Assembly (NCBI GenBank): GCA_026874595.1
Contig: CM049306.1
Span: forward strand, 1,874,019 to 1,938,018
Source of the DNA: Sipunculus nudus
Taxonomy: Eukaryota; Annelida; Sipuncula; Golfingiida; Sipunculidae
Direction: 5' to 3'
DNA: 64,000 bases
Part shown: positions 20,883-46,665 of the stretch, piece by piece
How positions within the stretch are numbered: the first letter of the stretch is position 1
Layout: every line of letters begins with the position of its first letter
The notes under the pieces: model-generated
The model's database searches: none
Told to the model about the DNA's origin: nothing
Seen by the model: the letters and a program-made list of their open reading frames with translations, nothing else
Position numbers and translations under genes: made by a program

Positions 20883-20896
20883 AGCGCCCTCTGGTG
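20883..20896 (-). promoter_or_regulatory. CTCF-like motif
   Basis: The minus strand reads CACCAGAGGGCGCT, close to the CTCF core CCASNAGRKGGCRS that is conserved in bilaterians. The same word also occurs in invertebrate repeats, so a chance or repeat-borne match is possible. Confidence 0.4.
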
Positions 20897-20906
20897 TGAC
20901 ACAGTA

Positions 20907-20920
20907 TCACACTAGTGTGA
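20907..20920. other. 14-bp perfect palindrome
   Basis: TCACACTAGTGTGA is its own reverse complement. GTGTGA at 20894-20899 adds a further half-site immediately upstream. It lies about 10 bp from the CTCF-like motif. Confidence 0.55.
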
Positions 20921-21856
20921 CAGGAAGGGTGCCCTATTTTTATGGAACTGGCTGAAAGTGAAGTCGGCGCTCGAGCCAGTCACAGGTCTCCGGAAAGTCC
21001 GGCCCGCACTGGCTCCCTCAGCAACGACAAAGTTTGACACATTGAATCCGTATACAGTTAGATATTAAGGGCGAAAATAGATATACTGATAGAGTTGCAG
21101 ATCGTAGTGAGAAAGGTGGAGAACCCGGAGAGAACCATCGACCTTGGACGGGCCACTACAACCCACTCTCTATTTTATAGAACAGGCCACAACAAAAACA
21201 ACGACGTGAGAGGGCCTCGTGGATAACAAAATCGGTGTTAACTAAATAAATAGAGAGAATTTCAGCCTTGGATTTGTTGTGCTTGGGCATTTATTCATAA
21301 GCTGTATAGCTGAGCACTTTTGCAACAATATAACTCACCATACCTGCAAAAATACTAGCATTTCATTCCATCCGGCTTTCGTCCGAGAAGAATATCGGTT
21401 GATAAAATTATTATTAGTCAATATATAACTCACGTGATTCAGTATTATAAAAGAACTATATACGAGCAATAGACATGTGATATTTTATTGGTACATGATG
21501 AGTAATTATAAAAATATGGCGAAATTTATCAAATTTGCGTCCGACTTCCGGCGTCCGGTTTTAACACACAGCCAATAAATGATCCGTTACCATAGAGACG
21601 GGTTTTCAAATTGGTTTATGAGTTCACATTATTCTCTCATGTTAATAAATCACTCATAGACTTATTTTAAGATTATTGGCTGTTAACCTTGATATCAATG
21701 AAAAAAATGAAAAAGTATAGGTGGCCGTTGCAGTACATTCAATGCCCCCGTAGACATGGCTTGTGTCGTTCACAAATCAAGCTATATATAAATACCTACC
21801 GAGTACATTCACGGCAAAATTGCAACAGACTTTGTGATATGAAGATGAACTGATAT

Positions 21857-22051
21857 GTTAAAAAGGAACATGTTAAATGCTCACAATAATAATCACAGTG
21901 AGCTAGGTTAAAAAGGAACATGTTAAATGGTCACAATAATAATCACAGTCAGCTAGGTTAAAAAGGAACATGTTAAATGGTCACAATAATAATCACAGTC
22001 AGCTAAAAAGGAACATGTTAAATGGTCACAATAATAATCACAGTCAGCTAG
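21857..22051. repeat. 50-bp tandem repeat, four units
   Basis: The unit contains AAAAAGGAACATGTTAAATG and CACAATAATAATCACAGT. Copies start near 21857, 21907, 21957 and 22004. The last lacks the GGTTA of the others (a 5-bp deletion), and the first has TGCTCAC where later units have TGGTCAC. Confidence 0.93.
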
Positions 22052-22184
22052 GTTTATAGCATTTGGATTCATGTGAATCTGTAAAAAATCTGAGTGATTG
22101 CAAATGGCGCCAGAAATCATTGTCAATAGTCCAATTACGGATAAGGCAAATTAAATAAATGCTCAAGAGAAATAGTGGTTAGCA
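22052..22184. other. Spacer between two minisatellites
   Basis: Short unique sequence with no feature seen. Confidence 0.5.
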
Positions 22185-23263
22185 GTCATAGGGCAATGAA
22201 ATACGGGTTTACATCAGTCATAAGGCAATGAAATACGGGTTTACATCAGTCATAGGGCAATGAAATACGGGTTTACATCAGACATAGGGCAATGAAATAC
22301 GGGTTTACATCAGTCATAGGGCAATGAAATACGGGTTTACATCAGACATAGGGCAATGAAATACGGGTTAACATCAGACATAGGGCAATGAAATACGGGT
22401 TTACATCAGTCATAGGGCAATGAAATACGGGTTTGCATCAGTCATAGGGCAATGAAATACGGGTTTACATCAGTCATAGGGCAATGAAATACGGGTTTGC
22501 ATCAGACATAGGGCAATAAAATACGGGTTTACATCAGTCATAGGGCAATAAAATACGGGTTTACATCAGACATAGGGCAATAAAATACGGGTTTACATCA
22601 GTCATAGGGCAATAAAATACGGGTTTACATCAGTCATAGGGCAATAAAATACGGGTTTACATCAGTCATAGGGCAATGAAATACGGGTTTACATCAGTCA
22701 TAGGGCAATAAAATACGGGTTTACATCAGACATAGGGCAATAAAATACGGGTTTACATCAGTCATAGGGCAATGAAATACGGGTTTACATCAGTCATAGG
22801 GCAATAAAATACGGGTTTACATCAGACATAGGGCAATGAAATACGGGTTTACATCAGTCATAGGGCAATAAAATACGGGTTTACATCAGTCAAAGGGCAA
22901 TGAAATACGGGTTTACATCAGTCAAAGGGCAATGAAATACGGGTTTACATCAGACATAGGGCAATGAAATACGGGTTTACATCAGTCATAGGGCAATAAA
23001 ATACGGGTTTACATCAGTCATAGGGCAATGAAATACGGATTTACATCAGACATAGGGCAATGAAATACGGGTTTACATCAGACATAGGGCAATGAAATAC
23101 GGGTTTACATCAGTCATAGGGCAATGAAATACGGGTTTACATCAGTCATAGGGCAATGAAATACGGGTTTACATCAGTCATAGGCCAATAAAATACGGGT
23201 TTACATCAGTCATAGGGCAATGAAATACGGGTTTACATCAGACATAGGGCAATGAAATACGGT
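22185..23263. repeat. 32-bp minisatellite, about 34 units
   Basis: The unit is GTCATAGGGCAATGAAATAC followed by GGGTTTACATCA. Two positions vary between units: GTCATA or GACATA, and AATGAAA or AATAAAA. Other changes are rare (GTTTGCATC, GTCAAAGGG, GGATTTAC). The last unit is cut after ATACGG. Confidence 0.96.
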
Positions 23264-24466
23264 ACAATATATAAATACTGTGCTGTGTCTTCTAATTTGG
23301 TTGATAGATTTGCTGCATAATGACTAATGATGAAAATGATGATTACCCTTCATGATCTGTCAAGAAACCCTGCTAACCAAGGCTCGACATTTGTGTCACA
23401 GCAGGACGAATCTAGCATATGGCCAATTCTATCTCCTAAATTCTAGACCCTCAACCACCCCCTTCCACCACACATACCACACTATCTTCCTCTCTGTCAT
23501 CATATATTGAATAAGCTTAGGGTCTGTAGGTTAAACCACATAAATTACAAACACAGTTTAAATAATGAAATATATTTAAATGTCGTGTAAATATCACAGG
23601 TGTATTCATATATGATAAAAACATCTAAAATTAAACAAACTTTGTTTGCTTGAAGCAGCTTTGTAGAATTGCAACTACAGTACATTGTTAAACAAATAAC
23701 CTTTACATCATGTAATTTATTAAACCTGTGCAGTTACAATCCATGTCTGGATATCATCATGCTCAGAGCTAAATGTGTACTCTGTTCCTGGCACATGATC
23801 ATTCACTTTATTCTACAGTGGCCATGAATCGCTTAGCATTACCGTAAATCCATGCAGGATGGCTTAAGAAAGAACAAACTGTATATTTAATATAATACAA
23901 TAGTATAAATTTTACATTTATGATAAAATAATAATTTCAATATCTTTAAAAATAATTAATAATCAGCTTTCCTCAGCCTACAAATTCAGGGCTCTCAGGA
24001 TGAGTAGAATGACTTGTTTTACCTACTTAAGAATCAACATTTTGTTAATAAAACCTGTTCTGTGAAGTTATACCTGGGCGCCACGAAAATCTGGAGGGCA
24101 TAGAAGGGGTAACAAGATCCCGGGATTTAAGGAATACGAATACGCGTCTTACCTTAAAGAACTGATCTGAAAATAAGTCAGTTTTCAAACTTTCACGTGT
24201 TGCAAAGAGGAGTACATGTACTGTAATCTTTATGACAATATTGACCGTTTTCACGATAAAAAGATTTGACCTTTACTGATGAACATGTGAAATACACATT
24301 ATAGGTCTGACGCTCGGCTATCGTCATCTACATATGAAAATAAATTTTGAAGCCTATTTACAACTCTCTTTAATTCAGAAAACCATAATGGGGTCACATG
24401 ACCATAGTCTCACACTTCCAGATCACGTATGACACGACTGAGACCGGATAAATGCCATTGATTATT
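23264..24466. other. AT-rich intergenic DNA
   Basis: No repeat, RNA gene or convincing open frame. A 69-residue minus-strand frame at 24045-24254 has no recognisable domain. If the ankyrin transcript reads through the 56-bp array, its poly(A) site should lie here. The plus-strand word TTTAAT at 24369-24374 reads ATTAAA on the minus strand. Confidence 0.5.
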
Positions 24467-24605
24467 TCCGGCACCACTGTAACCGGGCACCGATTTTACC
24501 CAGTACCACAGTTAACAGGCACCACAGTTTACGGGTTTACCGGGCGCCGTAGTATCCCGGCACGCCAGCTACTGGATACCACAGTTACCACAGTTACAAT
24601 CATAG
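24467..24605. repeat. Degenerate short tandem repeat, roughly 20 bp
   Basis: Variants of GGCACCACAGTTAAC recur about seven times (GGCACCACTGTAACC, GGCACCGATTTTACC, AGTACCACAGTTAAC, GGCACCACAGTTTAC and others). They are too diverged for an exact unit. Confidence 0.55.
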
Positions 24606-24682
24606 ATAGTATACCGTCTATCAAGATTATTTTCATTCGATTAATTAAGACTGGTATTGACAGCCCTCGCCTGGACCGGAAA

Positions 24683-27600
24683 TCTGCACGCTCTATTCGT
24701 CGGTTTTGATCACAAGTCTTGTCAGGGAGCGCGTGGGAGATGCACGCTCTACTCGTCGGTTTTGATCACAAGTCTTGTCAGGGAGCGCATGGGAGATGCA
24801 CGCTCTACTCGTCGGTTTTGATCACAAGTCTTGTCAGGGAGCGCATGGGAGATGCACGCTCTATTCGTCGGTTTGATCACAAGTCTTGTCAGGGAGCGCA
24901 TGGGAGATGCACGCTCTATATGCGGTTTTGATCACAAGTCTTGTCACGGAGCGCATGGGAGATGCACGCTCTACTCGTCGGTTTTGATCACAAGTGTTGT
25001 CAGGGAGCGCGTGGGAGATGCACGCTCTACTCGTCGGTTTTGATCACAAGTCTTGTCAGGGAGCGCATGGGAGATGCACGCTCTACTCGTCGGTTTTGAT
25101 CACAAGTCTTGTCAGGGAGCGCATGGGAGATGCACGCTCTATTCGTCGGTTTTGATCACAAGTCTTGTCAGGGAGCGCATGGGAGATGCACGCTCTACTC
25201 GTCGGTTTTGATCACAAGTCTTGTCAGGGAGCGCATGGGAGATGCACGCTCTACTCGTCGGTTTTGATCACAAGTCTTGTCAGGGAGCGCGTGGGAGATG
25301 CACGCTCTACTCGTCGGTTTTGATCACAAGTCTTGTCAGGGAGAGCGTGGGAGATGCACGCTCTACTCGTCGGTTTTGATCACAAGTCTTGTCAGGGAGC
25401 GCATGGGAGATGCACGCTCTACTCGTCGGTTTTGATCACAAGTCTTGTCAGGGAGCGCATGGGAGATGCACGCTCTATTCGTCGGTTTGATCACAAGTCT
25501 TGTCAGGGAGCGCATGGGAGATGCACGCTCTATATGCGGTTTTGATCACAAGTCTTGTCACGGAGCGCATGGGAGATGCACGCTCTACTCGTCGGTTTTG
25601 ATCACAAGTCTTGTCAGGGAGCGCATGGGAGATGCACGCTCTACTCGTCGGTTTTGATCACAAGTCTTGTCAGGGAGCGCGTGGGAGATGCATGCTCTAC
25701 TCGTCGGTTTTGATCACAAGTCTTGTCAGGGAGCGCATGGGAGATGCACGCTCTACTCGTCGGTTTTGATCACAAGTCTTGTCAGGGAGCGCGTGGGAGA
25801 TGCACGCTCTACTCGTCGGTTTTGATCACAAGTCTTGTCAGGGAGAGCGTGGGAGATGCACGCTCTACTCGTCGGTTTTGATCACAAGTCTTGTCAGGGA
25901 GCACATGGGAGATGCACGCTCTACTCGTCGGTTTTGATCACAAGTCTTGTCAGGGAGAGCGTGGGAGATGCACGCTCTATTCGTCGGTTTTGATCACAAG
26001 TCTTGTCAGGGAGCGCATGGGAGATGCACGCTCTACTCGTCGGTTTTGATCACAAGTCTTGTCAGGGAGCGCATGGGAGATGCACGCTCTATTCGTCGGT
26101 TTGATCACAAGTCTTGTCAGGGAGCGCATGGGAGATGCACGCTCTATATGCGGTTTTGATCACAAGTCTTGTCAGGGAGCGCATGGGAGATGCACGCTCT
26201 ACTCGTCGGTTTTGATCACAAGTCTTGTCAGGGAGCGCATGGGAGATGCACGCTCTACTCGTCGGTTTTGATCACAAGTCTTGTCAGGGAGCGCATGGGA
26301 GATGCACGCTCTACTCGTCGGTTTTGATCACAAGTCTTGTCAGGGAGCGCGTGGGAGATGCACGCTCTACACGTCGGTTTTGATCACAAGTCTTGTCAGG
26401 GAGCGCATGGGAGATGCACGCTCTACTCGTCGGTTTTGATCACAAGTCTTGTCAGGGAGCGCGTGGGAGATGCACGCTCTACTCGTCGGTTTTGATCACA
26501 AGTCTTGTCAGGGAGAGCGTGGGAGATGCACGCTCTACTCGTCGGTTTTGATCACAAGTCTTGTCAGGGAGCGCATGGGAGATGCACGCTCTACTCGTCG
26601 GTTTTGATCACAAGTCTTGTCGAGAGCGCATGGGAGATGCACGCTCTACTCGTCGGTTTTGATCACAAGTCTTGTCAGGGAGCGCATGGGAGATGCACGC
26701 TATACTCGTCGGTTTTGATCACAAGTCTTGTCATGGAGCGCATGGGAGATGCACGCTCTATTCGTCGGTTTTGATCACAAGTCTTGTCAGGGAGCGCATG
26801 GGAGATGCACGCTCTACTCGTCGGTTTTGATCACAAGTGTTGTCAGGGAGAGCATGGGAGATGCACGCTCTATTCGTCGGTTTTGATCACAAGTCTTGTC
26901 AGGGAGCGCATGGGAGATGCACGCTCTACTTGTCGGTTTTGATCACAAGTCTTGTCAGGGAGCGCATGGGAGATGCACGCTCTATTCGTCGGTTTGATCA
27001 CAAGTCTTGTCAGGGAGCGCATGGGAGATGCACGCTCTATATGCGGTTTTGATCACAAGTCTTGTCACGGAGCGCATGGGAGATGCACGCTCTACTCGTC
27101 GGTTTTGATCACAAGTCTTGTCAGGGAGCGCATGGGAGATGCACGCTCTACTCGTCGGTTTTGATCACAAGTCTTGTCAGGGAGCGCGTGGGAGATGCAC
27201 GCTCTACTCGTCGGTTTTGATCATAAGTCTTGTCAGGGAGAGCGTGGGAGATGCACGCTCTACTCGTCGGTTTTGATCACAAGTCTTGTCAGGGAGCGCA
27301 TGGGAGATGCACGCTCTATTCGTCGGTTTTGATCACAAGTCTTGTCAGGGAGCGCATGGGAGATGCACGCTCTACTCGTCGGTTTTGATCACAAGTCTTG
27401 TCAGGGAGCGCATGGGAGATGCACGCTCTATTCGTTGGTTTGATCACAAGTCTTGTCAGGGAGCGCATGGGAGATGCACGCTCTATATGCGGTTTTGATC
27501 ACAAGTCTTGTCACGGAGCGCATGGGAGATGCACGCTCTACTCGTCGGTTTTGATCACAAGTCTTGTCAGGGAGCGCATGGGAGATGCACGCTCTACTCG

Positions 27601-30600
27601 TCGGTTTTGATCACAAGTCTTGTCAGGGAGCGCGTGGGAGATGCACGCTCTACTCGTCGGTTTTGATCACAAGTCTTGTCAGGGAGAGCGTGGGAGATGC
27701 ACGCTCTACTCGTCGGTTTTGATCACAAGTCTTGTCAGGGAGCGCATGGGAGATGCACGCTCTACTCGTCGGTTTTGATGACAAGTCTTGTCAGGGAGCG
27801 CATGGGAGATGCACGCTCTACTCGTCGGTTTTGAGCACAAGTCTTGTCGAGAGCGCATGGGAGATGCACGCTCTACTCGTCGGTTTTGATCACAAGTCTT
27901 GTCAAGGAGCGCATGGGAGATGCACGCTCTACTCGTCGGTTTTGATCACAAGTCTTGTCAGGGAGCGCATGGGAGATGCACGCTCTACTCGTCGGTTTTG
28001 ATCACAAGTCTTGTCAGGGAGTGCATGGGAGATGCACGCTCTATTCGTCGGTTTTGATCACAAGTCTTGTCAGGGAGCGCATGGGAGATGCACGCTCTAC
28101 TCGTCGGTTTTGATCACAAGTGTTGTCAGGGAGAGCGTGGGAGATGCACGCTCTATTCGTCGGTTTTGATCACAAGTGTTGTCAGGGAGAGCGTGGGAGA
28201 TGCACGCTCTATTCGTCGGTTTTGATCACAAGTCTTGTCAGGGAGCGCGTGGGAGATGCACGCTCTACTCGTCGGTTTTGATCACAAGTCTTGTCAGGGA
28301 GCGCATGGGAGATGCACGCTCTATTCGTCGGTTTTGATCACAAGTCTTGTCAGGGAGCGCATGGGAGATGCACGCTCTACTCGTCGGTTTTGATCACAAG
28401 TCTTGTCAGGGAGAGCGTGGGAGATGCACGCTCTATTCGTCGGTTTTGATCACAAGTCTTGTCAGGGAGCGCATGGGAGATGCACGCTCTACTCCTCGGT
28501 TTTGATCACAAGTCTTGTCAGGGAGCGCATGGGAGATGCACGCTCTATTCGTCGGTTTGATCACAAGTCTTGTCAGGGAGCGCATGGGAGATGCACGCTC
28601 TATATGCGGTTTTGATCACAAGTCTTGTCACGGAGCGCATGGGAGATGCACGCTCTACTCGTCGGTTTTGATCACAAGTCTTGTCAGGGAGCGCATGGGA
28701 GATGCACGCTCTACTCGTCGGTTTTGATCACAAGTCTTGTCAGGGAGCGCGTGGGAGATGCACGCTCTACACGTCGGTTTTGATCACAAGTCTTGTCAGG
28801 GAGCGCATGGGAGATGCACGCTCTACTCGTCGGTTTTGATCACAAGTCTTGTCAGGGAGCGCGTGGGAGATGCACGCTCTACTCGTCGGTTTTGATCACA
28901 AGTCTTGTCAGGGAGAGCGTGGGAGATGCACGCTCTACTCGTCGGTTTTGATCACAAGTCTTGTCAGGGAGCGCATGGGAGATGCACGCTCTACTCGTTG
29001 GTTTTGATCACAAGTCTTGTCGAGAGCGCATGGGAGATGCACGCTCTACTCGTCGGTTTTGATCACAAGTCTTGTCAGGGAGCGCATGGGAGATGCACGC
29101 TCTACTCGTCGGTTTTGATCACAAGTCTTGTCAGGGAGCGCATGGGAGATGCACGCTATACTCGTCGGTTTTGATCACAAGTCTTGTCAGGGAGCGCATG
29201 GGAGATGCACGCTCTACTCGTCGGTTTTGATCACAAGTCTTGTCAGGGAGCGCATGGGAGATGCACGCTCTACTCGTCGGTTTTGATCACAAGTGTTGTC
29301 AGGGAGAGCATGGGAGATGCACGCTCTATTCGTCGGTTTTGATCACAAGTCTTGTCAGGGAGCGCATGGGAGATGCACGCTCTACTCGTCGGTTTTGATC
29401 ACAAGTCTTGTCAGGGAGCGCATGGGAGATGCACGCTCTATTCGTCGGTTTGATCACAAGTCTTGTCAGGGAGCGCATGGGAGATGCACGCTCTATATGC
29501 GGTTTTGATCACAAGTCTTGTCACAGAGCGCATGGGAGATGCACGCTCTACTCGTCGGTTTTGATCACAAGTCTTGTCACGGAGCGCATGGGAGATGCAC
29601 GCTCTACTCGTCGGTTTTGATCACAAGTCTTGTCAGGGAGTGCGTGGGAGATGCACGCTCTACTCGTCGGTTTTGATCATAAGTCTTGTCAGGGAGAGCG
29701 TGGGAGATGCACGCTCTATTCGTCGGTTTTGATCACAAGTCTTGTCAGGGAGCGCATGGGAGATGCACGCTCTATTCGTCGGTTTTGATCACAAGTCTTG
29801 TCAGGGAGCGCATGGGAGATGCACGCTCTACTCGTCGGTTTTGATCACAAGTCTTGTCAGGGAGCGCATGGGAGATGCACGCTCTATTCGTCGGTTTGAT
29901 CACAAGTCTTGTCAGGGAGCGCATGGGAGATGCACGCTCTATATGCGGTTTTGATCACAAGTCTTGTCACGGAGCGCATGGGAGATGCACGCTCTACTCG
30001 TCGGTTTTGATCACAAGTCTTGTCAGGGAGCGCATGGGAGATGCACGCTCTACTCGTCGGTTTTGATCACAAGTGTTGTCAGGGAGAGCATGGGAGATGC
30101 ACGCTCTATTCGTCGGTTTTGATCACAAGTCTTGTCAGGGAGCGCATGGGAGATGCACGCTCTACTCGTCGGTTTTGATCACAAGTCTTGTCAGGGAGAG
30201 CGTGGGAGATGCACGCTCTACTCGTCGGTTTTGATCACAAGTCTTGTCAGGGAGCGCATGGGAGATGCACGCTCTACTCGTCGGTTTTGATCACAAGTCT
30301 TGTCAGGGAGCGCATGGGAGATGCACGCTCTACTCTTCGGTTTTGATCACAAGTCTTGTCGAGAGCGCATGGGAGATGCACGCTCTACTCGTCGGTTTTG
30401 ATCACAAGTCTTGTCAGGGAGCGCATGGGAGATGCACGCTCTATTCGTCGGTTTTGATCACAAGTCTTGTCAGGGAGCGCATGGGAGATGCACGCTCTAC
30501 TCGTCGGTTTTGATCACAAGTCTTGTCAGGGAGCGCATGGGAGATGCACGCTCTATTCGTCGGTTTTGATCACAAGTCTTGTCAGGGAGCGCATGGGAGA

Positions 30601-33600
30601 TGCACGCTCTACTCGTCGGTTTTGATCACAAGTGTTGTCAGGGAGAGCGTGGGAGATGCACGCTCTATTCGTCGGTTTTGATCACAAGTGTTGTCAGGGA
30701 GAGCGTGGGAGATGCACGCTCTATTCGTCGGTTTTGATCACAAGTCTTGTCAGGGAGCGCGTGGGAGATGCACGCTCTACTCGTCGGTTTTGATCACAAG
30801 TCTTGTCAGGGAGCGCATGGGAGATGCACGCTCTACTCGTCGGTTTTGATCACAAGTCTTGTCAGGGAGCGCGTGGGAGATGCACGCTCTACTCGTCGGT
30901 TTTGATCACAAGTCTTGTCAGGGAGAGCGTGGGAGATGCACGCTCTACTCGTCGGTTTTGATCACAAGTCTTGTCAGGGAGCGCATGGGAGATGCACGCT
31001 CTACTCGTCGGTTTTGATGACAAGTCTTCTCAGGGAGCGCATGGGAGATGCACGCTCTACTCGTCGGTTTTGATCACAAGTCTTGTCGAGAGCGCATGGG
31101 AGATGCACGCTCTACTCGTCGGTTTTGATCACAAGTCTTGTCAGGGAGCGCATGGGAGATGCACGCTCTACTCGTCGGTTTTGATCACAAGTCTTGTCAG
31201 GGAGCGCATGGGAGATGCACGCTCTACTCGTCGGTTTTGATCACAAGTCTTGTCAGGGAGCGCATGGGAGATGCACGCTCTATTCGTCAGTTTTGATCAC
31301 AAGTCTTGTCAGGGAGCGCATGGGAGATGCACGCTCTACTCGTCGGTTTTGATCACAAGTGTTGTCAGGGAGAGCGTGGGAGATGCACGCTCTATTCGTC
31401 GGTTTTGATCACAAGTGTTGTCAGGGAGAGCGTGGGAGATGCACGCTCTATTCGTCGGTTTTGATCACAAGTCTTGTCAGGGAGCGCGTGGGAGATGCAC
31501 GCTCTACTCGTCGGTTTTGATCACAAGTCTTGTCAGGGAGCGCATGGGAGATGCACGCTCTATTCGTCGGTTTTGATCACAAGTCTTGTCAGGGAGCGCA
31601 TGGGAGATGCACGCTCTACTCGTCGGTTTTGATCACAAGTCTTGTCAGGGAGAGCGTGGGAGATGCACGCTCTATTCGTCGGTTTTGATCACAAGTCTTG
31701 TCAGGGAGTGCATGGGAGATGCACGCTCTACTCCTCGGTTTTGATCACAAGTCTTGTCAGGGAGCGCATGGGAGATGCACGCTCTATTCGTCGGTTTGAT
31801 CACAAGTCTTGTCAGGGAGCGCATGGGAGATGCACGCTCTATTCGTCGGTTTTGATCACAAGTCTTGTCAGGGAGCGCATGGGAGATGCACGCTCTATTC
31901 GTCGGTTTGATCACAAGTCTTGTCAGGGAGCGCATGGGAGATGCACGCTCTATTCGTCGGTTTTGATCACAAGTCTTGTCAGGGAGCGCATGGGAGATGC
32001 ACGCTCTACTCGTCGGTTTTGATCACAAGTCTTGTCAGGGAGCGCATGGGAGATGCACGCTCTACTCGTCGGTTTTGATCACAAGTCTTGTCAGGGAGCG
32101 CGTGGGAGATGCACGCTCTACACGTCGGTTTTGATCACAAGTCTTGTCAGGGAGCGCATGGGAGATGCCGCTCTACTCGTCGGTTTTGATCACAAGTCTT
32201 GTCAGGGAGCGCGTGGGAGATGCACGCTCTACTCGTCGGTTTTGATCACAAGTCTTGTCAGGGAGAGCGTGGGAGATGCACGCTCTACTCGTCGGTTTTG
32301 ATCACAAGTCTTGTCAGGGAGCGCATGGGAGATGCACGCTCTACTTGTCGGTTTTGATCACAAGTCTTGTCGAGAGCGCATGGGAGATGCACGCTCTACT
32401 CGTCGGTTTTGATCACAAGTCTTGTCAGGGAGCGCATGGGAGATGCACGCTCTACTCGTCGGTTTTGATCACAAGTCTTGTCAGGGAGCGCATGGGAGAT
32501 GCACGCTATACTCGTCGGTTTTGATCACAAGTCTTGTCAGGGAGCGCATGGGAGATGCACGCTCTACTCGTCGGTTTTGATCACAAGTCTTGTCAGGGAG
32601 CGCATGGGAGATGCACGCTCTACTCGTCGGTTTTGATCACAAGTGTTGTCAGGGAGAGCATGGTAGATGCACGCTCTATTCGTCGGTTTTGATCACAAGT
32701 CTTGTCAGGGAGCGCATGGGAGATGCACGCTCTACTCGTCGGTTTTGATCACAAGTCTTGTCAGGGAGCGCATGGGAGATGCACGCTCTATTCGTCGGTT
32801 TGATCACAAGTCTTGTCAGGGAGCGCATGGGAGATGCACGCTCTATATGCGGTTTTGATCACAAGTCTTGTCACAGAGCGCATGGGAGATGCACGCTCTA
32901 CTCGTCGGTTTTGATCACAAGTCTTGTCAGGGAGCGCATGGGAGATGCACGCTCTACTCGTCGGTTTTGATCACAAGTCTTGTCAGGGAGTGCGTGGGAG
33001 ATGCACGTTCTACTCGTCGGTTTTGATCATAAGTCTTGTCAGGGAGAGCGTGGGAGATGCACGCTCTATTCGTCGGTTTTGATCACAAGTCTTGTCAGGG
33101 AGCGCATGGGAGATGCACGCTCTATTCGTCGGTTTTGATCACAAGTCTTGTCAGGGAGCGCATGGGAGATGCACGCTCTACTCGTCGGTTTTGATCACAA
33201 GTCTTGTCAGGGAGCGCATGGGAGATGCACGCTCTATTCGTCGGTTTGATCACAAGTCTTGTCAGGGAGCGCATGGGAGATGCACGCTCTATATGCGGTT
33301 TTGATCACAAGTCTTGTCACGGAGCGCATGGGAGATGCACGCTCTACTCGTCGGTTTTGATCACAAGTCTTGTCAGGGAGCGCATGGGAGATGCACGCTC
33401 TACTCGTCGGTTTTGATCACAAGTGTTGTCAGGGAGAGCATGGGAGATGCACGCTCTATTCGTCGGTTTTGATCACAAGTCTTGTCACGGAGCGCATGGG
33501 AGATGCACGCTCTACTCGTCGGTTTTGATCACAAGTCTTGTCAGGGAGCGCATGGGAGATGCACGCTCTACTCGTCGGTTTTGATCACAAGTGTTGTCAG

Positions 33601-36600
33601 GGAGAGCATGGGAGATGCACGCTCTATTCGTCGGTTTTGATCACAAGTCTTGTCAGGGAGCGCATGGGAGATGCACGCTCTACTCGTCGGTTTTGATCAC
33701 AAGTCTTGTCAGGGAGAGCGTGGGAGATGCACGCTCTACTCGTCGGTTTTGATCTCAAGTCTTGTCAGGGAGCGCATGGGAGATGCACGCTCTACTCGTC
33801 GGTTTTGATCACAAGTCTTGTCAGGGAGCGCATGGGAGATGCACGCTCTACTCTTGGGTTTTGATCACAAGTCTTGTCGAGAGCGCATGGGAGATGCACG
33901 CTCTACTCGTCGGTTTTGATCACAAGTCTTGTCAGGGAGCGCATGGGAGATGCACGCTCTATTCGTCGGTTTTGATCACAAGTCTTGTCAGGGAGCGCAT
34001 GGGAGATGCACGCTCTACTCGTCGGTTTTGATCACAAGTCTTGTCAGGGAGCGCATGGGAGATGCACGCTCTATTCGTCGGTTTTGATCACAAGTCTTGT
34101 CAGGGAGCGCATGGGAGATGCACGCTCTACTCGTCGGTTTTGATCACAAGTGTTGTCAGGGAGAGCGTGGGAGATGCACGCTCTATTCGTCGGTTTTGAT
34201 CACAAGTGTTGTCAGGGAGAGCGTGGGAGATGCACGCTCTATTCGTCGGTTTTGATCACAAGTCTTGTCAGGGAGCGCGTGGGAGATGCACACTCTACTC
34301 GTCGGTTTTGATCACAAGTCTTGTCAGGGAGCGCATGGGAGATGCACGCTCTATTCGTCGGTTTTGATCACAAGTCTTGTCAGGGAGCGCATGGGAGATG
34401 CACGCTCTACTCGTCGGTTTTGATCACAAGTCTTGTCGAGAGCGCATGGGAGATGCACGCTCTACTCGTCGGTTTTGATCACAAGTCTTGTCAGGGAGCG
34501 CATGGGAGATGCACGCTCTACTCGTCGGTTTTGATCACAAGTCTTGTCAGGGAGCGCATGGGAGATGCACGCTCTACTCGTCGGTTTTGATCACAAGTCT
34601 TGTCAGGGAGCGCATGGGAGATGCACGCTCTATTCGTCGGTTTTGATCACAAGTCTTGTCAGGGAGCGCATGGGAGATGCACGCTCTACTCGTCAGTTTT
34701 GATCACAAGTGTTGTCAGGGAGAGCGTGGGAGATGCACGCTCTATTCGTCGGTTTTGATCACAAGTGTTGTCAGGGAGAGCGTGGGAGATGCACGCTCTA
34801 TTCGTCGGTTTTGATCACAAGTCTTGTCAGGGAGCGCGTGGGAGATGCACGCTCTACTCGTCGGTTTTGATCACAAGTCTTGTCAGGGAGCGCATGGGAG
34901 ATGCACGCTCCATTCGTCGGTTTTGATCACAAGTCTTGTCAGGGAGCGCATGGGAGATGCACGCTCTATTCGTCGGTTTTGATCACAAGTCTTGTCAGGG
35001 AGCGCATGGGAGATGCACGCTCTATTCGTCGGTTTTGATCACAAGTCTTGTCAGGGAGCGCATGGGAGATGCACGCTCTATTCGTCGGTTTTGATCACAA
35101 GTCTTGTCAGGGAGCGCATGGGAGATGCACGCTCTATTCGTCGGTTTGATCACAAGTCTTGTCAGGGAGCGCATGGGAGATGCACGCTCTATATGCGGTT
35201 TTGATCACAAGTCTTGTCACGGAGCGCATGGGAGATGCACGCTCTACTCGTCGGTTTTGATCACAAGTCTTGTCAGGGAGCGCATGGGAGATGCACGCTC
35301 TACTCGTCGGTTTTGATCACAAGTCTTGTCAGGGAGCGCGTGGGAGATGCACGCTCTACTCGTCGGTTTTGATCACAAGTCTTGTCAGGGAGAGCGTGGG
35401 AGATGCACGCTCTACTCGTTGGTTTTGATCACAAGTCTTGTCAGGGAGCGCATGGGAGATGCACGCTCTACTCGTCGGTTTTGATGACAAGTCTTGTCAG
35501 GGAGCGCATGGGAGATGCACGCTCTACTCGTCGGTTTTGATCACAAGTCTTGTCGAGAGCGCATGGGAGATGCACGCTCTACTCGTCGGTTTTGATCACA
35601 AGTCTTGTCAGGGAGCGCATGGGAGATGCACGCTCTACTCGTCGGTTTTGATCACAAGTCTTGTCAGGGAGCGCATGGGAGATGCACGCTCTACTCGTCG
35701 GTTTTGATCACAAGTCTTGTCAGGGAGCGCATGGGAGATGCACGCTCTATTCGTCGGTTTTGATCACAAGTCTTGTCAGGGAGCACATGGGAGATGCACG
35801 CTCTACTCGTCAGTTTTGATCACAAGTGTTGTCAGGGAGAGCGTGGGAGATGCACGCTCTATTCGTCGGTTTTGATCACAAGTGTTGTCAGGGAGAGCGT
35901 GGGAGATGCACGCTCTATTCGTCGGTTTTGATCACAAGTCTTGTCAGGGAGCGCGTGGGAGATGCACGCTCTACTCGTCGGTTTTGATCACAAGTCTTGT
36001 CAGGGAGCGCATGGGAGATGCACGCTCTATTCGTCGGTTTTGATCACAAGTCTTGTCAGGGAGCGCATGGGAGATGCACGCTCTACTCGTCGGTTTTGAT
36101 CACAAGTCTTGTCAGGGAGAGCGTGGGAGATGCACGCTCTATTCGTCGGTTTTGATCACAAGTCTTGTCAGGGAGCGCATGGGAGATGCACGCTCTACTC
36201 CTCGGTTTTGATCACAAGTCTTGTCAGGGAGCGCATGGGAGATGCACGCTCTATTCGTCGGTTTGATCACAAGTCTTGTCAGGGAGCGCATGGGAGATGC
36301 ACGCTCTATTCGTCGGTTTTGATCACAAGTCTTGTCAGGGAGCGCATGGGAGATGCACGCTCTACTCGTCGGTTTTGATCACAAGTCTTGTCAGGGAGCG
36401 CATGGGAGATGCACGCTCTACTCGTCGGTTTTGATCACAAGTCTTGTCAGGGAGCGCGTGGGAGATGCACGCTCTACACGTCGGTTTTGATCACAAGTCT
36501 TGTCAGGGAGCGCATGGGAGATGCACGCTCTACTCGTCGGTTTTGATCACAAGTCTTGTCAGGGAGCGCGTGGGAGATGCACGCTCTACTCGTCGGTTTT

Positions 36601-39600
36601 GATCACAAGTCTTGTCAGGGAGAGCGTGGGAGATGCACGCTCTACTCGTCGGTTTTGATCACAAGTCTTGTCAGGGAGCGCATGGGAGATGCACGCTCTA
36701 CTCGTCGGTTTTGATCACAAGTCTTGTCGAGAGCGCATGGGAGATGCACGCTCTACTCGTCGGTTTTGATCACAAGTCTTGTCAGGGAGCGCATGGGAGA
36801 TGCACGCTCTACTCGTCGGTTTTGATCACAAGTCTTGTCAGGGAGCGCATGGGAGATGCACGCTATACTCGTCGGTTTTGATCACAAGTCTTGTCAGGGA
36901 GCGCATGGGAGATGCACGCTCTACTCGTCGGTTTTGATCACAAGTCTTGTCAGGGAGCGCATGGGAGATGCACGCTCTACTCGTCGGTTTTGATCACAAG
37001 TGTTGTCAGGGAGAGCATGGTAGATGCACGCTCTATTCGTCGGTTTTGATCACAAGTCTTGTCAGGGAGCGCATGGGAGATGCACGCTCTACTCGTCGGT
37101 TTTGATCACAAGTCTTGTCAGGGAGCGCATGGGAGATGCACGCTCTATTCGTCGGTTTGATCACAAGTCTTGTCAGGGAGCGCATGGGAGATGCACGCTC
37201 TATATGCGGTTTTGATCACAAGTCTTGTCACAGAGCGCATGGGAGATGCACGCTCTACTCGTCGGTTTTGATCACAAGTCTTGTCAGGGAGCGCATGGGA
37301 GATGCACGCTCTACTCGTCGGTTTTGATCACAAGTCTTGTCAGGGAGTGCGTGGAAGATGCACGCTCTACTCGTCGGTTTTGATCATAAGTCTTGTCAGG
37401 GAGAGCGTGGGAGATGCACGCTCTATTCGTCGGTTTTGATCACAAGTCTTGTCAGGGAGCGCATGGGAGATGCACGCTCTATTCGTCGGTTTTGATCACA
37501 AGTCTTGTCAGGGAGCGCATGGGAGATGCACGCTCTACTCGTCGGTTTTGATCACAAGTCTTGTCAGGGAGCGCATGGGAGATGCACGCTCTATTCGTCG
37601 GTTTGATCACAAGTCTTGTCAGGGAGCGCATGGGAGATGCACGCTCTATATGCGGTTTTGATCACAAGTCTTGTCACGGAGCGCATGGGAGATGCACGCT
37701 CTACTCGTCGGTTTTGATCACAAGTCTTGTCAGGGAGCGCATGGGAGATGCACGCTCTACTCGTCGGTTTTGATCACAAGTGTTGTCAGGGAGAGCATGG
37801 GAGATGCACGCTCTATTCGTCGGTTTTGATCACAAGTCTTGTCAGGGAGCGCATGGGAGATGCACGCTCTACTCGTCGGTTTTGATCACAAGTCTTGTCA
37901 GGGAGAGCGTGGGAGATGCACGCTCTACTCGTCGGTTTTGATCACAAGTCTTGTCAGGGAGCGCATGGGAGATGCACGCTCTACTCGTCGGTTTTGATCA
38001 CAAGTCTTGTCAGGGAGCGCATGGGAGATGCACGCTCTACTCTTGGGTTTTGATCACAAGTCTTGTCGAGAGCGCATGGGAGATGCACGCTCTACTCGTC
38101 GGTTTTGATCACAAGTCTTGTCAGGGAGCGCATGGGAGATGCACGCTCTATTCGTCGGTTTTGATCACAAGTCTTGTCAGGGAGCGCATGGGAGATGCAC
38201 GCTCTACTCGTCGGTTTTGATCACAAGTCTTGTCAGGGAGCGCATGGGAGATGCACGCTCTATTCGTCGGTTTTGATCACAAGTCTTGTCAGGGAGCGCA
38301 TGGGAGATGCACGCTCTACTCGTCGGTTTTGATCACAAGTGTTGTCAGGGAGAGCGTGGGAGATGCACGCTCTATTCGTCGGTTTTGATCACAAGTGTTG
38401 TCAGGGAGAGCGTGGGAGATGCACGCTCTATTCGTCGGTTTTGATCACAAGTCTTGTCAGGGAGCGCGTGGGAGATGCACGCTCTACTCGTCGGTTTTGA
38501 TCACAAGTCTTGTCAGGGAGCGCATGGGAGATGCACGCTCTATTCGTCGGTTTTGATCACAAGTCTTGTCAGGGAGCGCATGGGAGATGCACGCTCTACT
38601 CGTCGGTTTTGATCACAAGTCTTGTCGAGAGCGCATGGGAGATGCACGCTCTACTCGTCGGTTTTGATCACAAGTCTTGTCAGGGAGCGCATGGGAGATG
38701 CACGCTCTACTCGTCGGTTTTGATCACAAGTCTTGTCAGGGAGCGCATGGGAGATGCACGCTCTACTCGTCGGTTTTGATCACAAGTCTTGTCAGGGAGC
38801 GCATGGGAGATGCACGCTCTATTCGTCGGTTTTGATCACAAGTGTTGTCAGGGAGAGCGTGGGAGATGCACGCTCTATTCGTCGGTTTTGATCACAAGTC
38901 TTGTCAGGGAGCGCGTGGGAGATGCACGCTCTACTCGTCGGTTTTGATCACAAGTCTTGTCAGGGAGCGCATGGGAGATGCACGCTCCATTCGTCGGTTT
39001 TGATCACAAGTCTTGTCAGGGAGCGCATGGGAGATGCACGCTCTATTCGTCGGTTTTGATCACAAGTCTTGTCAGGGAGCGCATGGGAGATGCACGCTCT
39101 ATTCGTCGGTTTTGATCACAAGTCTTGTCAGGGAGCGCATGGGAGATGCACGCTCTATTCGTCGGTTTTGATCACAAGTCTTGTCAGGGAGCGCATGGGA
39201 GATGCATCCTCTACTCGTCGGTTTTGATCACAAGTCTTGTCAGGGAGCGCGTGGGAGATGCACGCTCTACTCGTCGGTTTTGATCACAAGTCTTGTCAGG
39301 GAGCGCGTGGGAGATGCACGCTCTACTCGTCGGTTTTGATCACAAGTCTTGTCATGGAGCGCGTAGGAGATGCACGCTCTACTCGTCGGTTTTGATCACA
39401 AGTCTTGTCAGGGAGCGCATGGGAGATGCACGCTCTACTTGTCGGTTTTGATCACAAGTCTTGTCAGGGAGCGCATGGGAGATGCACGCTCTATTCGTCG
39501 GTTTGATCACAAGTCTTGTCAGGGAGCGCATGGGAGATGCACGCTCTATATGCGGTTTTGATCACAAGTCTTGTCACGGAGCGCATGGGAGATGCACGCT

Positions 39601-42600
39601 CTACTCGTCGGTTTTGATCACAAGTCTTGTCAGGGAGCGCATGGGAGATGCACGCTCTACTCGTCGGTTTTGATCACAAGTCTTGTCAGGGAGCGCGTGG
39701 GAGATGCACGCTCTACTCGTCGGTTTTGATCATAAGTCTTGTCAGGGAGAGCGTGGGAGATGCACGCTCTACTCGTCCGTTTTGATCACAAGTCTTGTCA
39801 GGGAGCGCATGGGAGATGCACGCTCTATTCGTCGGTTTTGATCACAAGTCTTGTCAGGGAGCGCATGGGAGATGCACGCTCTACTCGTCGGTTTTGATCA
39901 CAAGTCTTGTCAGGGAGCGCATGGGAGATGCACGCTCTATTCGTCGGTTTGATCACAAGTCTTGTCAGGGAGCGCATGGGAGATGCACGCTCTATATGCG
40001 GTTTTGATCACAAGTCTTGTCACGGAGCGCATGGGAGATGCACGCTCTACTCGTCGGTTTTGATCACAAGTCTTGTCAGGGAGCGCATGGGAGATGCACG
40101 CTCTACTCGTCGGTTTTGATCACAAGTCTTGTCAGGGAGCGCGTGGGAGATGCACGCTCTACTCGTCGGTTTTGATCACAAGTCTTGTCAGGGAGAGCGT
40201 GGGAGATGCACGCTCTACTCGTCAGTTTTGATCACAAGTCTTGTCAGGGAGCGCATGGGAGATGCACGCTCTACTCGTCGGTTTTGATCACAAGTCTTGT
40301 CAGGGAGCGCATGGGAGATGCACGCTCTACTCGTCGGTTTGATCACAAGTCTTGTCGAGAGCGCATGGGAGATGCACGCTCTACTCGTCGGTTTTGATCA
40401 CAAGTATTGTCACGGAGCGCATGGGAGATGCACGCTCTACTCGTCGGTTTTGATCACAAGTCTTGTCAGGGAGCGCATGGGAGATGCACGCTCTACTCGT
40501 CGGTTTTGATCACAAGTCTTGTCAGGGAGCGCATGGGAGATGCACGCTCTATTCGTCGGTTTTGATCACAAGTCTTGTCAGGGAGCGCATGGGAGATGCA
40601 CGCTCTACTCGTCGGTTTTGATCACAAGTGTTGTCAGGGAGAGCGTGGGAGATGCACGCTCTATTCGTCGGTTTTGATCACAAGTGTTGTCAGGGAGAGC
40701 GTGGGAGATGCACGCTCTATTCGTCGGTTTTGATCACAAGTCTTGTCAGGGAGCGCGTGGGAGATGCACGCTCTACTCGTCGGTTTTGATCACAAGTCTT
40801 GTCAGGGAGCGCATGGGAGATGCACGCTCTATTCGTCGGTTTTGATCACAAGTCTTGTCAGGGAGCGCATGGGAGATGCACGCTCTACTCGTCGGTTTTG
40901 ATCACAAGTCTTGTCAGGGAGAGCGTGGGAGATGCACGCTCTATTCCTCGGTTTTGATCACAAGTCTTGTCAGGGAGCGCATGGGAGATGCACGCTCTAC
41001 TCGTCGGTTTTGATCACAAGTCTTGTCAGGGAGCGCATGGGAGATGCACGCTCTATTCGTCGGTTTGATCACAAGTCTTGTCAGGGAGCGCATGGGAGAT
41101 GCACGCTCTATATGCGGTTTTGATCACAAGTCTTGTCACGGAGCGCATGGGAGATGCACGCTCTACTCGTCGGTTTTGATCACAAGTCTTGTCAGGGAGC
41201 GCATGGGAGATGCACGCTCTACTCGTCGGTTTTGATCACAAGTCTTGTCAGGGAGCGCGTGGGAGATGCACGCTCTACACGTCGGTTTTGATCACAAGTC
41301 TTGTCAGGGAGCGCATGGGAGATGCACGCTCTACTCGTCGGTTTTGATCACAAGTCTTGTCAGGGAGCGCGTGGGAGATGCACGCTCTACTCATCGGTTT
41401 TGATCACAAGTCTTGTCAGGGAGAGCGTGGGAGATGCACGCTCTACTCGTCGGTTTTGATCACAAGTCTTGTCAGGGAGCGCATGGGAGATGCACGCTCT
41501 ACTCGTCGGTTTTGATCACAAGTCTTGTCGAGAGCGCATGGGAGATGCACGCTCTACTCGTCGGTTTTGATCACAAGTCTTGTCAGGGAGCGCATGGGAG
41601 ATGCACGCTCTACTCGTCGGTTTTGATCACAAGTCTTGTCAGGGAGCGCATGGGAGATGCACGCTATACTCGTCGGTTTTGATCACAAGTCTTGTCAGGG
41701 AGCGCATGGGAGATGCACGCTCTATTCGTCGGTTTTGATCACAAGTCTTGTCAGGGAGCGCATGGGAGATGCCCGCTCTATTCGTCGGTTTGATCACAAG
41801 TCTTGTCAGGGAGCGCATGGGAGATGCACGCTCTATATGCGGTTTTGATCACAAGTCTTGTCACAGAGCGCATGGGAGATGCACGCTCTACTCGTCGGTT
41901 TTGATCACAAGTCTTGTCAGGGAGCGCATGGGAGATGCACGCTCTACTCGTCGGTTTTGATCACAAGTCTTGTCAGGGAGCGCGTGGGAGATGCACGCTC
42001 TACTCGTCGGTTTTGATCATAAGTCTTGTCAGGGAGAGCGTGGGAGATGCACGCTCTATTCGTCGGTTTTGATCACAAGTCTTGTCAGGGAGCGCATGGG
42101 AGATGCACGCTCTATTCGTCGGTTTTGATCACAAGTCTTGTCAGGGAGCGCATGGGAGATGCACGCTCTACTCGTCGGTTTTGATCACAAGTCTTGTCAG
42201 GGAGCGCATGGGAGATGCACGCTCTATTCGTCGGTTTGATCACAAGTCTTGTCAGGGAGCGCATGGGAGATGCACGCTCTATATGCGGTTTTGATCACAA
42301 GTCTTGTCACGGAGCGCATGGGAGATGCACGCTCTACTCGTCGGTTTTGATCACAAGTCTTGTCAGGGAGCGCGTGGGAGATGCACGCTCTACTCGTCGG
42401 TTTTGATCATAAGTCTTGTCAGGGAGAGCGTGGGAGATGCACGCTCTATTCGTCGGTTTTGATCACAAGTCTTGTCAGGGAGCGCATGGGAGATGCACGC
42501 TCTATTCGTCGGTTTTGATCACAAGTCTTGTCAGGGAGCGCATGGGAGATGCACGCTCTACTCGTCGGTTTTGATCACAAGTCTTGTCAGGGAGCGCATG

Positions 42601-44736
42601 GGAGATGCACGCTCTATTCGTCGGTTTGATCACAAGTCTTGTCAGGGAGCGCATGGGAGATGCACGCTCTATATGCGGTTTTGATCACAAGTCTTGTCAG
42701 GGAGCGCATGGGAGATGCACGCTCTACTCGTCGGTTTTGATCACAAGTCTTGTCAGGGAGCGCATGGGAGATGCACGCTCTACTCGTCGGTTTTGATCAC
42801 AAGTGTTGTCAGGGAGAGCGTGGGAGATGCACGCTCTACTCGTCGGTTTTGATCACAAGTCTTGTCAGGGAGAGCGTGGGAGATGCACGCTCTACTCGTC
42901 GGTTTTGATCACAAGTCTTGTCAGGGAGCGCATGGGAGATGCACGCTCTACTCGTCGGTTTTGATCACAAGTCTTGTCAGGGAGCGCATGGGAGATGCAC
43001 GCTCTACTCGTCGGTTTTGATCACAAGTCTTGTCGAGAGCGCATGGGAGATGCACGCTCTACTCGTCGGTTTTGATCACAAGTCTTGTCAGGGAGCGCAT
43101 GGGAGATGCACGCTCTACTCGTCGGTTTTGATCACAAGTCTTGTCAGGGAGCGCATGGGAGATGCATGCTCTACTCGTCGGTTTTGATCACAAGTCTTGT
43201 CAGGGAGCGCATGGGAGATGCACGCTCTATTTGTCGGTTTTGATCACAAGTCTTGTCAGGGAGCGCATGGGAGATGCACGCTCTACTCGTCGGTTTTGAT
43301 CACAAGTGTTGTCAGGGAGAGCGTGGGAGATGCACGCTCTATTCGTCGGTTTTGATCACAAGTGTTGTCAGGGAGAGCGTGGGAGATGCACGCTCTATTC
43401 GTCGGTTTTGATCACAAGTCTTGTCAGGGAGCGCATGGGAGATGCACGCTCTACTCGTCGGTTTTGATCACAAGTCTTGTCAGGGAGCGCATGGGAGATG
43501 CACGCTCTATTCGTCGGTTTTGATCACAAGTCTTGTCAGGGAGCGCATGGGAGATGCACGCTCTACTCGTCGGTTTTGATCACAAGTCTTGTCGAGAGCG
43601 CATGGGAGATGCACGCTCTACTCGTCGGTTTTGATCACAAGTCTTGTCAGGGAGCGCATGGGAGATGCACGCTCTACTCGTCGGTTTTGATCACAAGTCT
43701 TGTCAGGGAGCGCATGGGAGATGCACGCTCTACTCGTCGGTTTTGATCACAAGTCTTGTCAGGGAGCGCATGGGAGATGCACGCTCTATTCGTCGGTTTT
43801 GATCACAAGTCTTGTCAGGGAGCGCATGGGAGATGCACGCTCTACTCGTCAGTTTTGATCACAAGTGTTGTCAGGGAGAGCGTGGGAGATGCACGCTCTA
43901 TTCGTCGGTTTTGATCACAAGTGTTGTCAGGGAGAGCGTGGGAGATGCACGCTCTATTCGTCGGTTTTGATCACAAGTCTTGTCAGGGAGCGCGTGGGAG
44001 ATGCACGCTCTACTCGTCGGTTTTGATCACAAGTCTTGTCAGGGAGCGCATGGGAGATGCACGCTCCATTCGTCGGTTTTGATCACAAGTCTTGTCAGGG
44101 AGCGCATGGGAGATGCACGCTCTATTCGTCGGTTTTGATCACAAGTCTTGTCAGGGAGCGCATGGGAGATGCACGCTCTATTCGTCGGTTTTGATCACAA
44201 GTCTTGTCAGGGAGCGCATGGGAGATGCACGCTCTATTCGTCGGTTTTGATCACAAGTCTTGTCAGGGAGCGCATGGGAGATGCATCCTCTACTCGTCGG
44301 TTTTGATCACAAGTCTTGTCAGGGAGCGCGTGGGAGATGCACGCTCTACTCGTCGGTTTTGATCACAAGTCTTGTCAGGGAGCGCGTGGGAGATGCACGC
44401 TCTACTCGTCGGTTTTGATCACAAGTCTTGTCATGGAGCGCGTGGGAGATGCACGCTCTACTCGTCGGTTTTGATCACAAGTCTTGTCAGGGAGCGCATG
44501 GGAGATGCACGCTCTACTCATCGGTTTTGATCACAAGTCTTGTCAGGGAGCGCATGGGAGATGCACGCTCTACTCGTCAGTTTTGATCACAAGTCTTGTC
44601 AGGGAGCGCATGGGAGATGCACGCTCTACTCGTCGGTTTTGATCACAAGTCTTGTCAGGGCGCGTGTGGGAGATGCACGCTCTACTCGTCGGTTTTGATC
44701 ACAAGTCTTGTCAGGGAACGCGTGAGAGATGCTACT
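24683..44736. repeat. 20-kb array of a 56-bp unit, homologous to the 3' end of the ankyrin gene
   Basis: The unit runs GTTTTGATCACAAGTCTTGT, CAGGGAGCGCATGGGAGATG, CACGCTCTACTCGTCG. About 357 units fit the span. Recurrent variants are GTGTTGTCAGGGAGAGCGTG, the one-base-short GGTTTGATC, the one-base-short TATATGCGG, and the one-base-short TTGTCGAGAGCGC. A frequent 11-unit block of 614 bp (11 x 56 minus 2) recurs, for example at 24719, 25333 and 25947. Read on the minus strand, each unit contains the codons for SLTRLVIKTDE and a TAG stop. This is exactly the C-terminus of the ankyrin gene at 44682, the last unit on the gene side. The 60-126-residue frames in the array rotate with the 56-bp period and are not genes. 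Confidence 0.97.
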
Positions 44737-46352
44737 TCACCCTTCAACTCATTCAATGAATTTGCTAGGTTCGGCATTGGACTTGTACTTTTAAAGTCTT
44801 TGTTTGGTTCATCTACTGGTGACATTTCTGAGTCAAGCTCCTCCAGAACATCTTTAATTTCCTGCATATCTGCTTGGAGGGTGGTTAACTGTCGGGATAG
44901 GGCCCGTGGATTATCCATCTCTTCCGGGTTTTTCTCGGGAGAAACACTTGTTTCTGACCACGCGGCGGCAACGTTTTCCATGTCCAGCTTCCCCGTCGTT
45001 AAATCTTCTTTTCCGGCAATTCGCTTTGCACTTCTGGCCCGCTTGGTGGGAGGACGATGTCTGTCATACCAACGAGAGTCCATTATTTTCGGGGTTCTGC
45101 CTCGGCAGTCTGCCTGATTTGCGTCGGCACCCAGAGCCAGTAAAGTGTCTGCAGCGTGGTAGTGCCTTAATTTTAGGGCATGGTGGAGTGGTGTGGAGCC
45201 CTTTTTACTTTGGGCGTTAATATCTGCTCCTTGATCAAAAAACATCCGTATCAGAGTCTGTGACAGGCACTTTTTGTTTGACTGGTATTCTCCCAGTTCA
45301 CATTCATGACCTGTTCCGCACAGCACATGTACAGCCGAGTGACCGGCTTGGTCCTGGTTGTTGATATCCTTTGTCCTGGTCAAGAGGAGCTGTACCGCCT
45401 CCACAGAGGGCACAGCGTGAGCAACAGACGCGTGCAGCGCCATTCTACCATGCAGGTCCACAAGGTCAGGGTCAGCTCCTGCGTCCAGTAATATCTGCAC
45501 ATTATCAGGATTCCCTGAATGTACATGTAATGGCGTACTGCCGTCGTTCGCTTTAGCGTTAAGTGCTTCAGGTCCGCATATTTTACAGAGTTTCCGTAAG
45601 ACCTCGGGTTGTTGGGCGATGTGCACTGGGACGTGCCCTTGTTTATTCTGGGTTCGCAGTGCCCCCGTGGCCCCACAGCGCAGTAGCAGGCGCAGGACCT
45701 CGGAGAGCAAGGCGTGACGACAGCATATATGGACAGGGGTATCACCGTTTGAATTCGAGACATTGACAGAGCATCCTTTTTTTACAAGATGTTCTATCAC
45801 GCCACGGGGCTGTGTAGATTGTTCAGACAACTGAGCTGCCATTGCTAGACACACATGCAGTGGCGTATTACCCTTTGCATCCTTAGCGTTGATATCTGAC
45901 TCGACCTCAATCAGGCAGTCGGCCATTTCTAGTTGTCTCATCCTTAAGGCGATATGAAGCGGCGTCTCATGATCCGTGGTGGTAGCATTTAAGGATGCAC
46001 CGCAGTCTAGGAGTACTGGGGTCAGAGTCAAATCACCAACCGAAACTGAGCAGTGAAGTGGAGTCCACTGATACTTAACCGAAGGCACGTCTATCCGAAA
46101 AGTAGGAATGCAGTTTAATAGCGTTGTGAACATTTCAACCTGACCCTTCAAGGAAATGACATGAAGTATACTCACATAATCTGTGGTGAGGTCTGGCAAA
46201 GTATGCTCAATAATGGCTGCCTCACAAGCCTCTCGCGATTCTGGACCACAATCGTCAAGGCAAGCCTGGAATTTTTCTGTTTTACCGGTCTGGATAGAAT
46301 CCAATAGAGACATCACGGCCTCCTGGATGTCAAAATCCTCCTCTTGTTCCAT
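44682..46352 (-). CDS. Ankyrin-repeat protein with NLS-like and coiled-coil C-terminus
   Basis: The protein is 556 residues from one uninterrupted frame. After an acidic N-terminus (residues 1-60) come about nine to ten ankyrin repeats over residues 62-424. TPLH-type helix starts are at about 97 (WTPLH), 129 (ETPLH), 163 (NTPLH), 205 (DTPVH), 241 (VPVH), 272 (STPLH), 304 (MALH), 339 (SAVH), 387 (STPLH) and 420 (RTPKI). A basic stretch at about 431-445 (RHRPPTKRARSAKR) resembles a bipartite nuclear signal. Residues 484-510 and 529-552 look like coiled coil. Ankyrin repeats bind protein partners; the specific partner and pathway are unknown. The start is the first ATG after an in-frame TGA at 46395-46397, and its Kozak context is weak. 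The final 15 or so codons and the TAG fall in the first 56-bp array unit. There is no intron in the frame, though a splice out near 44737 (AGG|GTGAAG) would change the C-terminus. Confidence 0.85.
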   Translation of the reverse strand: MEQEEDFDIQEAVMSLLDSIQTGKTEKFQACLDDCGPESREACEAAIIEHTLPDLTTDYVSILHVISLKGQVEMFTTLLNCIPTFRIDVPSVKYQWTPLHCSVSVGDLTLTPVLLDCGASLNATTTDHETPLHIALRMRQLEMADCLIEVESDINAKDAKGNTPLHVCLAMAAQLSEQSTQPRGVIEHLVKKGCSVNVSNSNGDTPVHICCRHALLSEVLRLLLRCGATGALRTQNKQGHVPVHIAQQPEVLRKLCKICGPEALNAKANDGSTPLHVHSGNPDNVQILLDAGADPDLVDLHGRMALHASVAHAVPSVEAVQLLLTRTKDINNQDQAGHSAVHVLCGTGHECELGEYQSNKKCLSQTLIRMFFDQGADINAQSKKGSTPLHHALKLRHYHAADTLLALGADANQADCRGRTPKIMDSRWYDRHRPPTKRARSAKRIAGKEDLTTGKLDMENVAAAWSETSVSPEKNPEEMDNPRALSRQLTTLQADMQEIKDVLEELDSEMSPVDEPNKDFKSTSPMPNLANSLNELKGEVASLTRSLTRLVIKTDE

Positions 46353-46524: not shown

Positions 46525-46665
46525 GTGACGACCAGCCAGCAGATACACAGACTGTTCCCCATCACAGGTTATATGACGGCCAGCCAGCAGATACACACAC
46601 TGTTCCTCCACACAGGTTATATGACGACCAGTCAGCAGATACACAGACGTTCCTCCTCAAAGGCT
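46525..46665. repeat. 48-bp tandem repeat, three units
   Basis: Units contain CCAGCCAGCAGATACACA, a TGTTCC-type word and ACAGGTTATATGACG. The third has CCAGTCAGCAG and a shortened end. It lies about 170 bp upstream of the ankyrin start, in its presumed first intron or promoter. Confidence 0.85.

Follow-up and report, generated by a model that had tools for sequence, protein, structure and literature searches.

According to a review, any sequence can in theory yield a satellite (PMC5615363). In the model of Haber and Louis, as summarised in PMC3389668 and PMC6947457, minisatellites are born when direct repeats of 5-10 bp undergo slippage or unequal exchange. Other satellites have been described as grown from tandem repeats in the 3' UTR of Ogre retrotransposons (PMC7004042), and in the oyster dispersed satellite-like arrays are carried by Helentrons (PMC7492417, PMC8268682). 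Here we describe a tandem array that adjoins an ankyrin gene in a stretch of 64,000 nucleotides (hereafter the window) of the genome of Sipunculus nudus. The founders of tandem arrays are seldom identified, since as a rule they disappear or become homogenised. In the present case we favour, with moderate confidence, an origin in situ from the 3' end of the ankyrin/coiled-coil gene, which would have given rise to a locus-specific minisatellite of satellite size.

The array lies on the minus strand at positions 24685-44732 and extends over about 20 kb, with 359 units arranged head-to-tail and followed by the trinucleotide GCA. TRF gave a period of 56 bp, 359.1 copies and 95% matches, and segmentation of the array yielded 301 units of 56 bp, 57 of 55 bp and one of 54 bp. 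The array of approximately 357 copies downstream of the gene, which had been noticed in a first-pass annotation made from the letters alone, is therefore real. Because 56 cannot be divided by 3, one 56-bp unit is out of frame with the next, and for the same reason the array gives no long coding frame. According to the first-pass annotation every unit reads SLTRLVIKTDE plus TAG; this holds for 235 of the 359 units (236 if only LTRLVIKTDE and the stop are considered), while the remainder carry deletions of 1-2 bp, substitutions or an altered stop. There are 61 distinct unit sequences, 34 units have a sequence that occurs only once, and some interior units are 4-6 edits away from the array consensus. 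Duplicated blocks of up to 14 units, unevenly placed, were found inside the array interior. A 26-mer search allowing up to 3 mismatches retrieved 336 matches in the window and none in each of 100 shuffles, and the matches in the array are not due to chance. RNA folding of the first four units was unremarkable (z -0.60). The hexamer AATAGA, a weak variant of the polyadenylation signal, is present in 105 copies within the array on the strand of the gene (24685-44700), and 11 other hexamers tried gave no copies.

The gene beside the array is an uninterrupted ORF of 556 amino acids at positions 44682-46352 of the minus strand, as judged by ORF calling, Pfam and PDB matches, and its reading frame stays open for 14 codons upstream of the ATG. 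Pfam Ank_2 matched it with an E value of 9.5e-40 (135.5 bits versus a cut-off of 27.3), other Ank models matched as well, and by curated model the product belongs to the ankyrin-repeat proteins. The repeats are located at about residues 62-424, the span of the PDB ankyrin matches, and the tail (about residues 485-555) has, judged by eye, a coiled-coil-like spacing of leucines, with two weak, sub-threshold Pfam matches at residues 485-549. When the protein was searched against its own genome, the best other match of the whole sequence had 33% identity and covered residues 93-409, that is, the ankyrin part only (78 of 438 candidates scored), and the C-terminal 138 residues matched only themselves when all 12 candidates were scored at E values of up to 1; no close paralogue was found among these candidates. 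A 48-bp tandem repeat with 2.9 copies is found at 46526-46663, about 170 bp upstream of the ATG, and together with the 56-bp array it means that the gene is flanked by tandem repeats near both ends.

The gene-side unit (44677-44732, minus strand) is at the same time the coding end of this single-copy gene. As had been claimed in the first-pass annotation, the stop and the final codons lie inside it: read from 44732 to 44677, it holds the last 16 codons of the ORF (ASLTRSLTRLVIKTDE), then TAG, and then AGCGT. It differs from the consensus by 3 substitutions, two of which occur in no other unit. Unit 2 (44621-44676, minus strand), as delimited by segmentation, likewise has 3 substitutions, two of them private. 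The gene-side unit had been called the most divergent, and in this respect the claim needs correction, as it has 3 edits like unit 2 and interior units have 4-6; what stands is that these two units are the only ones among the 359 without a relative within 1 edit, the nearest relative of the gene-side unit in the array being 2 edits away. The lack of ACGCTC, also mentioned for this unit, merely marks the array boundary, and the unit's own TAGAGCGT is present. One-off sequences account for 4 of the first 6 units at the gene side versus 1 of 6 at the far end (34 of 359 overall), an excess with a hypergeometric p of 0.0009, and no block of at least two units is common to the first 6 units and the remaining array. 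Exchange is thus weakest at the gene side of the array, which speaks in favour of the gene as source. An edge effect could, however, yield divergent gene-side units whichever way the array arose, and the direction is not given by this pattern alone.

At its distal edge the array ends in phase: the GCA at 24685-24687 (minus strand) is a further copy of the unit's opening trinucleotide, and next to it lies unique DNA (GATTTCC...). The 600 bp of the distal flank (24085-24684, minus strand; GCAGATTTCCGGTCC) are single copy, with one match in the genome, which is the flank itself. If the array arose in situ, this segment would be the old 3' flank of the gene. Beyond the array there is an ATTAAA at 24374, which would suit a former 3' UTR; it was dropped as evidence, since ATTAAA or AATAAA is present in 3,193 of 5,054 comparable stretches (63%).

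The unit was found only in this array. The exact 29-mer core has 234 matches in the genome of 1.43 Gb and 234 in the window, and the 26-mer with up to 3 mismatches has 336 in each, those of the window all at 24699-44713; the genome counts may be lower bounds and leave out some stretches, and the places of the genome matches were listed in part. Since genome and window counts are equal, the repeat was taken to occupy a single locus, and no copy with up to 3 mismatches was detected outside the array in the 1.43 Gb. A widespread occurrence of the unit would have spoken against the gene as its source, and all 234 exact and all 336 near matches are in the array. The origin of the repeat in the gene, as put forward in the first-pass annotation, is the better-supported direction. 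With regard to repeat class, the tandem units of a locus-specific minisatellite measure roughly 10-100 bp and are confined to one locus, and here 336 of 336 matches lie inside the array. Classical satellite families are abundant and occupy many loci or heterochromatic blocks, whereas the 56-bp repeat has one 20-kb locus in 1.43 Gb. Repeats borne by transposons have flanks common to dispersed copies, whereas here the distal flank and the C-terminus of the gene match only themselves.

The repeat is not alone in being confined to one place. The 32-bp array of the window is single-locus too (33 matches in both genome and window), and so is its 52-bp array, whose 152 genome matches are accounted for by 72 within the window and 80 within the piece that adjoins it. 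TRF assigned 46,463 of the 64,000 bases of the window to tandem repeats, and 30,342 of 120,000 bases in twelve pieces from six other contigs, or 20,342 of 110,000 when one piece that is wholly array is left out. Repeats limited to a single place look common here. Given this amount of tandem DNA, a seed that overlaps the end of a gene is to be expected now and then and is not very surprising. The claim that such a case is rarely encountered was consequently not supported, both other window arrays tested being single-locus and tandem DNA being plentiful in the sampled contigs. Several further arrays were seen along the way. A sampled 10-kb piece (C3, 20.0 Mb) is array throughout, its 52-bp unit having no match to the 52-bp unit of the window, and tandem repeats make up 92% of the piece sampled immediately upstream of the window. 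Two long arrays with a period of 41 bp, one at 182-12103 of the window and the other at 866-9314 of the upstream piece, are about 11 kb apart. The 42/126-bp array at 54661-59229 is open in several frames, with up to 737 codons (PILTKLVLNARIDS-like); this openness perhaps reflects merely a period that is a multiple of 3 and units without stops in those frames.

An origin from the gene end could have proceeded as follows. Before the array existed, two GCA trinucleotides at the locus would have bordered a single 56-bp copy, in which the last 16 codons and the stop were followed by 5 bp of 3' UTR. Slippage or a microhomology-mediated tandem duplication between these trinucleotides would have added another copy on the downstream side of the coding one, which remained intact, and unequal exchange, with block duplications of up to 14 units, may then have extended the array to 20 kb. 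The coding copy would have been retained as the C-terminus of the gene, with the array as its 3' flank. What we infer is the duplication step and a coding tail that predates the array. The observations on which this proposal draws are the confinement to one locus, the overlap with the gene end, the presence of whole units plus GCA, the two isolated units at the gene side and the duplicated blocks of the interior. Against it, the flanking direct repeats measure just 3 bp, below the classical 5-10 bp.

A whole number of units plus GCA between single-copy flanks is what is expected from tandem duplication in situ, and the join between the gene and the first unit would then be original sequence. 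As a control for the phase of array ends, the window and 14 further 10-kb pieces were scanned with TRF, and 30 arrays reached the minimum values set for period (15), copy number (3) and matches (75%). An array was counted as in phase when its tail, according to the rounded copy number of TRF, was at most 5.7 bp. This applied to 10 of the 30, and after leaving out 7 arrays cut by piece ends (3 of them in phase) it applied to 7 of 23 complete arrays, the focal one included. As 6 of the 22 other complete arrays are likewise in phase, the end phase was dropped as strong evidence; it is consistent with birth in situ and not decisive.

The protein sequence across the junction also speaks for the gene as the source. 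The heptad L529 L533 L536 V540 carries on into the unit-derived part as L543 L547 L550, with T554 at the next site. The base that gives L543 is C in 358 of the 359 units, and only the gene unit has T, hence Leu; the commonest array unit has Pro at this position (ASPMRSLTRL). A single-sequence AlphaFold2 model predicted one helix at residues 526-555, spanning the junction, with low confidence (pLDDT 64 for residues 531-550). Run without an alignment, the model had a mean pLDDT of 38.1 and recovered the ankyrin part badly, and only the local C-terminal helix was used.

In the reverse course of events, which we regard as unlikely, the repeat would be the older element and would have lain beside the gene until the ORF was extended into it, making the last 16 codons recruited satellite. 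The gene unit, at 2 edits from its nearest relative, falls within the variant range of the array, so that the sequence alone cannot root it; on the other hand, no source for the repeat was found elsewhere in the 1.43-Gb genome. Capture would also require that an in-frame extension continued the heptad by coincidence. When 10,672 stop-free stretches of 48 bp were taken from the non-array DNA of the window, 55 of them (0.5%) had at least 3 Leu at the four heptad sites; the stretches overlap, and the test was devised post hoc with the sequence already seen. A looser test that accepted any of LIVMF was passed by 1,333 of the 10,672 stretches (12.5%), and by this measure an in-register tail is not rare by chance. 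Of 112 rotations of the consensus unit, 4 passed the looser test as well, and the one used by the gene is not one of these 4. The commonest unit would, if captured, have placed a proline in the helix. A quite unlikely alternative is that the exon really ends upstream by splicing, and that the last codons are an unspliced reading into an array housed in a large intron. A candidate donor GT is available at 44740 (AGG/GTGAAG), 8 bp before the array, with 4 of 7 consensus positions, a level reached by two sites in 44500-45000, this one included; it is, however, weak and without G at +5. A search for coding sequence past the array, in which short or unfamiliar exons are missed, gave nothing at the Pfam cut-off for any of the 9 minus-strand stop-to-stop ORFs of at least 45 amino acids in 20500-24765, two matches with E values of 0.06-0.09 being far below it. 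The continuity of the heptad would then, once more, be chance.

We give next to no credence to an assembly artefact. Arrays of this kind do assemble poorly and the copy number may be inexact, but 61 distinct units, duplicated blocks at uneven positions, and flanks that are clean and unique are unlike a simple mis-assembly. Birth from the gene end is the reading that we retain. It is very doubtful that array and gene have stayed coupled since, with transcription running into a giant 3' UTR of 20 kb, gene conversion rewriting the tip of the coiled coil, and the array acting as a store of C-terminal variants.

In the part of the literature on gene-derived satellites and stop-codon arrays that was covered, no satellite beside a coding founder was found. 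Among the described systems, the minisatellites of the Haber and Louis model resemble the array in having a unit of tens of bp, a single locus, a flanking direct repeat and internal block duplications, and they are seeded from unique sequence, as the array probably was. Unlike them, the array has a putative seed that overlaps a stop codon and a size of 20 kb and 359 units, and it is bordered at both ends by 3 bp (GCA), where the model has direct repeats of 5-10 bp around the seed. The model may thus serve as an analogy, and microhomology-mediated duplication would do as well. With the Ogre-derived satellites, as described in PMC7004042, the array has in common a (here putative) seed at the 3' end of a transcription unit and the expansion of a short array, but the Ogre source is a dispersed retroelement, whereas here it would be a single-copy cellular gene with the array at one locus. 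The Helentron arrays of the oyster, according to PMC7492417 and PMC8268682, are similar in that an animal genome has many short-unit arrays dispersed through it, but unlike the 56-bp array, with its one locus and single-copy flanks, they form multi-locus families tied to mobile elements. The coding copy at the end of this array, which a function in a protein helix may have held back, could act as a fixed reference for rooting and dating array growth. Seen beside these systems, the array is probably a clear example of a familiar process in which the likely founder has been preserved, and it is useful for studies of minisatellite birth, with the accepted picture that any sequence can act as a seed unchanged.
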